Made by a program: the position numbers and the translations under genes. Positions 15,086 to 21,626 of a stretch of DNA of 64,000 nucleotides are shown in pieces (position 1 is the first letter of the stretch; every line of letters starts with the position of its first letter). Location of the stretch: assembly GCF_011405655.1 (NCBI RefSeq), contig NZ_AP022829.1, positions 2,589,001 to 2,653,000 on the forward strand. The letters run 5' to 3'. The notes below the pieces were generated by a model, which was not told the origin of the DNA, did no database searches, and was given only the letters and a program-made list of their open reading frames with translations. The stretch is from Adlercreutzia hattorii (GTDB lineage: Bacteria; Actinomycetota; Coriobacteriia; Coriobacteriales; Eggerthellaceae).

Positions 15086-15283
15086 GGTGCTTTCCAGCAT
15101 CGGTGCTCGCCGACCTCTGATCGCCCCGCGAAGAACGCGGCCGTTAAGAAATAGCTTCCACGTCAGCAGCAGCGATGCTGGGATGGTACCGACTCATGTG
15201 CGTTCCTTCCGCTATTTCTTTTGCCGCGTTCGCAGCGGGATAAAGCGATCAGCGGGCGGCGAGCACCGATGCCGGAAAGCACC
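15086..15283. repeat. 198-bp palindromic structured element, copy A
   Basis: An intercistronic element between the DUF4956 and DUF4353 genes. The outer arms 15086-15112 and 15257-15283 form a 27-bp stem with one mismatch. Inside, CTGATCGC (15117-15124) pairs with GCGATCAG (15245-15252), CCCGC (15125-15129) with GCGGG (15235-15239), then GAACGCGGC with GCCGCGTTC and AAGAAATAGC with GCTATTTCTT. Copy B at 21429-21626 has the same length and core but other stem sequences. Minus-strand loop DNA holds a 17-codon ORF. Structured RNA, a small mobile palindromic element or both are possible. Confidence 0.8.
15144..15197 (-). CDS. Possible 17-residue micro-ORF in element A
   Basis: The frame reads MSRYHPSIAAADVEAIS and then TAA, with AAGGA six bases before the ATG. 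The copy in element B reads MSRYHPGIAAAEVEAVS. The end of the ORF forms one arm of the AAGAAATAGC helix. All four base differences between the copies change amino acids, although conservatively, and one is matched in the pairing arm, so structure rather than peptide may be what is conserved. Translation is unproven. Confidence 0.35.
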   Translation of the reverse strand: MSRYHPSIAAADVEAIS

Positions 15284-21428: not shown

Positions 21429-21626
21429 GGCGGCCCGCGGAACCCGTGATCACCGACCTCTGCGCGCCCTCCGGAGAACGCGGCCGTTAAGAAACAGCTT
21501 CCACTTCAGCAGCAGCGATACCGGGATGGTACCGACTCATGTGCGTCATCTCCGCTGTTTCTTTTGCCGCGTTCGCAGGAGGATAAAGCGCGCAGCGGGC
21601 GGTGATCACGGGTTCCGCGGGCCGCC
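21429..21626. repeat. 198-bp palindromic structured element, copy B
   Basis: Second copy, between the NapH-like and ferredoxin genes. The arms 21429-21455 and 21600-21626 are perfectly complementary over 27 bp yet unrelated in sequence to the arms of copy A. Inside, CTGCGCGC (21460-21467) pairs with GCGCGCAG (21588-21595), CCTCC (21468-21472) with GGAGG (21578-21582), GAACGCGGC with GCCGCGTTC, and AAGAAACAGC with GCTGTTTCTT. Each helix that differs from copy A keeps its pairing. The ATAAA bulge next to the second helix is conserved. Confidence 0.8.
21487..21540 (-). CDS. Possible 17-residue micro-ORF in element B
   Basis: The frame reads MSRYHPGIAAAEVEAVS before a TAA. GGAG lies 10 bases before the ATG, and an in-frame ATG three codons earlier could be the start. 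It matches the ORF of element A at 14 of 17 positions. Expression is unproven; it may be a by-product of a conserved loop sequence. Confidence 0.35.
   Translation of the reverse strand: MSRYHPGIAAAEVEAVS

Follow-up and report, generated by a model that had tools for sequence, protein, structure and literature searches.

The window, the whole 64,000-nucleotide stretch of an Adlercreutzia genome analysed here, contains two copies (A and B) of a palindromic element, each placed just beyond the 3' end of a minus-strand gene, one for a DUF4956 protein and the other for a 4Fe-4S protein (Table 1). Both copies are 198 bp long and lie exactly where an earlier note, made from the bare sequence, had placed them; they are 85% identical across 172 nt. 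The 27-bp basal stem described there consists of 26 bp outside the core and one G-C pair, with one mismatch in copy A and none in copy B. Likewise, the inner helices differ between A and B in step, with pairing retained. The loop string that had been called nearly invariant is identical in A and B, but varies across the wider family. Folded with 10 nt of flank per side, A and B both proved much more stable than 200 dinucleotide shuffles, with z values of -10.7 to -13.3 on either strand.

Table 1. Features of the two element copies in the window (the plus strand is that of the earlier note).
Feature	Position	Strand	Remark
Copy A, whole element (arms and core)	15086..15283	+	
Copy A, left outer arm, 26 nt	15086..15111	+	locus-specific
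Copy A, conserved 146-nt core	15112..15257	+	helices P2-P5 and apical domain
Copy A, apical domain, about 55 nt	15156..15210	+	fastest-changing part between same-locus copies
Copy A, A-rich bulge ATAAA	15240..15244	+	3' side, between P3 and P2
Copy A, right outer arm	15258..15283	+	DUF4956 gene (- strand) ends 20 nt beyond
17-codon ORF, copy A	15144..15197	-	not conserved, not considered coding
Copy B, whole element	21429..21626	+	
Copy B, left outer arm	21429..21454	+	
Copy B, conserved core	21455..21600	+	
Copy B, right outer arm	21601..21626	+	4Fe-4S protein gene (- strand) ends 11 nt beyond
17-codon ORF, copy B	21487..21540	-	not conserved

The 17-codon ORF that the earlier note had set in its title is indeed present in both window copies. 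If the element were a leader peptide or another short coding element, this shared frame would be its product, and of the 51 copies that could be scored (11 of 62 lack the anchor), 31 do close the frame with a stop behind the seventeenth codon. However, only 7 of these 51 have an ATG at the start, and 19 have no in-frame stop inside the core, so that the ORF is not conserved and a coding role is extremely improbable. A plus-strand ORF in the apical domain was also rejected, as 30 of 62 copies have no ATG at its place.

Comparison with known RNAs gave no family match, in agreement with the earlier statement that no named element has this layout. More specifically, the Rfam 15 covariance models returned no match in the window at gathering score, and over copy B only mir-499 appeared, at 16 bits against a gathering score of 60. 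In three further stretches (L186, L085, L088), the sole Rfam match was a separate raiA RNA (RF03072, 161 bits), located at L186:8224-8463 on the minus strand near a copy of genus g17. A metabolite riboswitch was rejected in view of the place close after stop codons, the unrelated neighbours and the lack of an Rfam match. The element contains GGGATGGTACCG, which we take to resemble a T-box motif; a T-box was rejected, given no Rfam T-box match and TAG for TGG in many copies.

Distribution and shared fold of the family

The 2.9-Mb genome from which the window derives (G000) harbors 11 copies of the element. In a blastn-type search of 41 genomes, comprising this genome and 40 relatives, every one of the nine Adlercreutzia genomes gave matches and the other 32 genomes gave none. 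A profile search with nhmmer gave 64 hits, from which two short ones were dropped and 62 near-full copies retained; the core alignment holds 60 of these (L052_4538 and L072 excluded), and the arm counts, as well as the alignment (A1) underlying model R1, hold 59 (L075 also excluded). Model R1 located 68 places in the nine Adlercreutzia genomes, 5 to 11 per genome, with opposite-strand matches at the same place not counted. Six of its Adlercreutzia places lie outside the 62 copies, and two of these (L205, L207) are degenerate.

The family can also be followed beyond the genus. Across 396 Coriobacteriia genomes, with at most seven candidates scored per genome, R1 gave matches in 14, three of them belonging to genus g17; one match among the 14 genomes (L201 in G075, 30 bits) is marginal and was not accepted as a copy. 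A second model, R2, whose 11 source copies all come from g17, independently recovers each of the nine Adlercreutzia genomes (best E values of 1e-13 to 1e-16) and adds genera g2 and g58, bringing the total to 16 of 396. Two genomes that appeared empty in the blastn-type search (G009, G024) have diverged copies detected with R2. Within the 396 genomes the element was found only in Eggerthellaceae, where it occurs in Adlercreutzia and at least four more genera. The Coriobacteriia search proposed by the earlier note found further copies in related genomes, and these keep their pairing, so that neither outcome named in the note as a refutation was observed.

Several smaller observations accompany these searches. 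A nucleotide pattern search of contigs returned 27 stretches, 26 in Adlercreutzia or Enterorhabdus records and a single one in a Pseudomonas contig (L139:3668-3702, minus strand), which may be a chance match. A shorter variant with a small apical hairpin, GATTTGCGAAGCAAATC, occurs in g17 at L191:3773-3899 and L192:5033-5160. Copy B had no blastn match among phages and plasmids, and an exact search of viral contigs with one degenerate apical pattern found none either.

Each copy forms one long interrupted hairpin composed of outer arms, helices P2 to P5 with kept mismatches, an A-rich bulge on the 3' side and an apical domain. The plan is common to five genera (g2, g58, g60, g17 and Adlercreutzia) and runs from the outer arms through P2, the A-rich 3' bulge, P3, a small internal loop, P4 and P5 to the apical domain, with the bulge at an equivalent place in copies of all five. 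It is visible in single-sequence folds of L221, L222, L223, L226, L227 and L228. P4 differs in sequence between most genera with pairing retained: most Adlercreutzia copies have GAACGCGG, g2 has GAAGCGCGC, g58 has CAACCGCG and g60 has GAACCGCGC, and the opposite strand of the helix is complementary in every case. The sequence thus varies while the fold is kept, and therefore the shape itself seems to matter.

This impression was quantified on the 59-copy alignment (58 distinct sequences). Standard pairs fill 93.4% of 2370 cells, compared with 79.8% (sd 0.4) after shuffling, and two-sided changes occur at 28 of 41 pairs. The covariation score is 0.382 versus 0.141 in shuffled alignments, none of 500 shuffles, which ignore the kinship of the copies, reached either the score or the paired fraction, and slid registers pair only 35-45% of cells. 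Covariation thus exceeds both shuffles and slid registers, as expected of a structured RNA. RNAalifold gave a consistent picture for A1, in which 25 of its 36 pairs change on both sides. Together, the counts and the consensus fold support the constraint implied by the earlier proposal that the fold is selected. For 16 sequences across genera, RNAalifold missed P4 and P5 and returned 23 pairs with an energy of -16.2; since plain sequence alignment is poor at P4 and P5, the claim between genera rests on the model searches and the single folds.

Some departures from perfect pairing are themselves conserved. At core positions 5/142 a mismatch (T.C, T.T or C.C) persists in 59 of 60 copies. At positions 2/145 two purines face each other in 47 of 60 copies, and a Watson-Crick pair is present in 12. 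Within P2, 28 of 60 copies have G.A at pair 8/139 and 29 of 60 have A.G at pair 9/138, the remaining copies being nearly all Watson-Crick there. The outer arms, by comparison, hold 1449 Watson-Crick pairs among 1516 in 59 copies. Arms that are near-perfect and specific to their locus are what could arise if pairing were kept by the mutation process alone, through template switching or quasi-palindrome correction during replication and without any function. However, correction of the arms alone would tend to erase the 5/142 pyrimidine mismatch, the internal loop and the A-rich bulge are kept as well, the latter across genera, and correction would not put copies at gene ends. With locus-specific arms and shared cores on one side and the 5/142 mismatch on the other, renewal of the arms by a hairpin-based process, which the earlier note gave as its alternative to selection, is a possibility.

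Locus-specific arms and cores common to several loci

The outer arms measure 14-32 bp, and 21-32 bp in 56 of 59 copies. Their sequences are tied to the locus, while the core of about 146 nt is common to different loci. The median arm score is 0.38 in 50 same-locus pairs versus 0.09 in 1661 different-locus pairs; at core identities of at least 0.90 it is 0.80 for 16 same-locus pairs versus 0.17 for 22 different-locus pairs (p = 2e-5, the pairs not being independent). Individual cases illustrate this: L059 and L071 have identical arms and cores only 79% identical, whereas the cores of L088 and copy B agree at 95% of positions and their arms are unrelated. Exceptions exist in both directions. Same-locus arms differ strongly at several loci, among them the locus of copy A (f0/f2), and the inner 18 nt are common to L078_14180 and L079, which belong to different loci.

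In a tree of the cores, some loci group across species, and elsewhere the copies of one genome or of a related genome pair group together. Of the 18 shared gaps, 7 hold the element in opposite orientations in different species (f1/f7, f3/f13, f9/f10, f14/f26, f19/f3, f23/f24 and f15/f28). The arm and core pattern would fit either gene conversion, with cores copied from one dispersed element to another, or insertion that has recurred at particular places. This apparent exchange of cores within locus-specific arms is the most unusual feature of the element. A more specific and rather unlikely version holds that the arms are palindromic sockets belonging to the locus and the core is an exchangeable module, written in either orientation by hairpin-directed copying without target duplication. 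If true, each locus would pass on its own arms, cores would follow the lineage of the genome, and the family would be a dispersed RNA element that homes to hairpins.

Changes within a locus were followed in 16 same-locus comparisons, several of which use a copy in common. Of 528 core stem pairs compared, 510 are unchanged, as are 379 of 414 arm pairs; in the apical domain, 97 of 896 positions show a difference. Arm changes comprise 16 double Watson-Crick replacements, 13 changes between Watson-Crick and G.U, and 6 others; core stem changes comprise 8 double changes, 2 to G.U and 8 to other pairs. The arm changes fit selection for pairing with wobble intermediates, to which template switching (a mechanism described in PMC8794818) could add double changes. 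The ratio of 16 double to 19 single arm changes and the replacement of an inner arm as a block on both sides, seen between L080 and L090, are also what a purely mutational origin of the pairing could produce by that mechanism. Against it, 13 of the 19 single arm changes lie between Watson-Crick and G.U, and together with the conserved mismatch, internal loop and bulge, this makes such an origin quite unlikely. The core stems argue against pairing selection in one respect, in that single changes there gave rise to 8 non-standard pairs but only 2 G.U pairs.

The pattern was further examined for signs of mobility. A selfish, non-autonomous and MITE-like element could settle downstream of genes, where it does the least harm, with a fold that serves its mobility and not the host. 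The 5-11 places per genome, many of them occupied in some species only (several genomes are incomplete drafts), the opposite orientations at 7 of 18 shared gaps and the half-element remnants adjoining full copies all fit such an element, as does a 26-nt gap without a palindrome in L112 at the locus of L088. However, none of 59 copies has a target duplication of at least 3 nt, and duplications of 2 nt occur in 3 of 59 against a shuffled mean of 4.0. A family-wide terminal inverted repeat is likewise absent, because the ends differ between copies, the arms being unrelated between loci even at core identities of at least 0.90. Furthermore, same-locus copies keep their stems between species. Among 40 genomes, Y1_Tnp is found in 5 of 14 element-bearing genomes and 10 of 26 others, and RVT_1 (reverse transcriptase) in 7 of 14 and 7 of 26, with RVT_1 absent from all three g17 genomes. 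Neither of these two compared families tracks the element, RVT_1 being somewhat commoner with it. On this evidence a selfish origin is possible but doubtful.

The window's genome has six Y1_Tnp (IS200-like) matches (G000:C1), and among its eight siblings only G002 has one. The half-element remnants, alone or adjoining full copies, lie at L076:5000-5100, at L059:5180-5270, in the left flank of L092 (before 5010), in the left flanks of L039 and L054, and in L116 just before 1501; at least two of them break near the P4/P5 junction (TTAA).

Gaps at two loci bear on the origin of the arms. At the L088 locus, arms derived from the target were rejected: the best-matching relative (L112, in G006) has the 26-nt gap with neither arm sequence nor palindrome, so that, within the limits of comparing diverged gaps, no arms were present there beforehand. 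For copy B, the corresponding gap in G002 (L098) holds a short stub hairpin with the outer 12 nt of the arm in common. We read the stub as a deletion of the tip, since the arm is also found in G000 and the flanks place G002 together with G001 and G004; it may instead be a hairpin that preceded insertion. Other palindromes were observed in these gaps. The copy B locus of G006 (L094) carries, where the element would be, one with similar ends and a different or degenerate interior. The gap in G002 orthologous to that of L088 (L119) carries another long palindrome, CCCGTAGGGC...GCCCTACGGG, possibly of another repeat family, and the orthologous gap in G004 (L117) carries one partly similar to it.

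Position at gene ends and probable role

Copies are found close to gene ends, in either orientation. Based on gene calls from a simple caller and uncurated, copies lie a median of 15 nt from the closest stop codon (n=54), and the 57 copies with both neighbours called lie in 33 tandem, 21 convergent and 3 divergent gaps, compared with 175 tandem, 57 convergent and 69 divergent among 301 gaps of the same stretches (all called gaps of at least 30 nt, element gaps included). In tandem gaps, 29 of 33 copies are nearer to the upstream stop than to the downstream start. The other genera show comparable placements: in g17 the 3' end of the right-hand neighbour faces the element in 13 of 14 cases, L200 lies in a convergent gap, and among the six copies in g2, g58 and g60, the four for which a left neighbour was called all lie outside divergent gaps, the remaining two having no such call. 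The neighbours are unrelated housekeeping genes; 20 of 22 in the window's genome were scanned and include polA, topA, aroB/aroQ, queA, coaBC and GH3 among others, with two lacking a family.

In Adlercreutzia arms, G.T exceeds A.C on the plus strand by 33:7 and G.A exceeds C.T by 20:2, with arm G.T in 25 of 59 copies and arm A.C in 5 of 59. For arms and core together, the ratio of G.T to A.C is 26:3 in gaps whose neighbours read the minus strand and 28:15 where a neighbour reads the plus strand. In g17 no such excess is seen, and either strand may therefore be the acting one. The plus strand often seems to run opposite to fork movement, judged by eye from dnaA positions and local GC skew and confounded with gene strand. 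T-rich stretches, defined as at least four T in 6 nt within 20 nt, follow the hairpin in 7 of 57 cases on the plus strand and 23 of 59 on the minus strand.

The bias toward G.T on the plus strand, strongest where the neighbours read the other strand, would suit an independent small RNA made from the plus strand and acting in trans or as antisense. However, a -10-like motif at a fixed place was looked for upstream of the copies and none was found, the downstream T-rich stretch is present in few, the asymmetry is absent in g17 (10:10 in 13 copies, counted without L199, L201, L205 and L207 and with L191 aligned locally over the apical hairpin only), and the arms differ from copy to copy. An RNA of this kind is accordingly improbable.

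We favor, with a probability of roughly one half, the reading that these structured repeats form a new non-coding family, dispersed in the genomes, selected for pairing and probably acting as RNA at the 3' ends of transcripts; its function, and that it works as RNA, are inferred. The transcript of the upstream gene would run into the hairpin, which could then form the 3' end of the transcript or a processing element, in convergent gaps for both genes. There it might serve as a barrier to exonucleases and read-through, or as a site of double-strand cleavage. Copying of cores between loci may spread or homogenise the copies, with each locus keeping its own arms. Certain observations count against the role at 3' ends. 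T-rich stretches are few on both strands, and the G.T excess, strongest where neighbours read the minus strand, does not fit a simple 3'-UTR role. The patchy loci, opposite orientations and half-element remnants also fit a selfish element.

In kind, the family is known, as small palindromic intergenic repeats at gene ends have been recognised before. ERIC/IRU elements are palindromic in form, REP/BIME sequences are dispersed palindromes often at gene 3' ends, and bcr1-type or MITE-like repeats are small, dispersed and intergenic with a predicted RNA fold. Comparable kinds of repeat are described in PMC2229807 and PMC2267715. According to the former, ERIC/IRU repeats are 127-bp enterobacterial intergenic sequences, co-transcribed with their neighbours and affecting mRNA stability in an orientation-dependent manner. 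The present element resembles them as a palindromic intergenic repeat, but is set apart from ERIC as described by its length of about 200 bp, its host group Eggerthellaceae, arms that differ per locus around common cores, and a fold kept across genera at low identity. Unlike bcr1-type or MITE-like repeats, it has no target duplication or common terminal repeat. REPs measure 20-40 bp in the account given in PMC3733652; the element is far longer, and Y1_Tnp (RAYT) is missing in 9 of 14 element-bearing genomes. Palindromic structured-RNA candidates from the human microbiome occur on both strands and include many predicted terminators (PMC8040213, whose main text does not mention Adlercreutzia, Eggerthella or Coriobacter). 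Set beside intrinsic terminators and the candidates outlined there, the element differs in its large conserved core and in mostly showing no T-run. No paper on such an element in Adlercreutzia or Eggerthellaceae was among the matches listed in the open literature. The family is thus ERIC-like in kind without being a member of ERIC, and new as far as the searches reach. What is unusual is the combination of locus-specific arms with common cores, and the conservation of structure across genera.

To our knowledge, few RNA elements have been described in this group of gut bacteria, and the present repeats add a structured element that extends over a bacterial family and had no Rfam 15 match in the searches made. 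It combines strong covariation of the RNA type with the ends of a dispersed repeat that are specific to each locus. As such, it makes two questions testable: whether compensatory changes in long hairpins originate from selection or from template switching, and how a repeat may spread or be homogenised without terminal repeats or target duplication.
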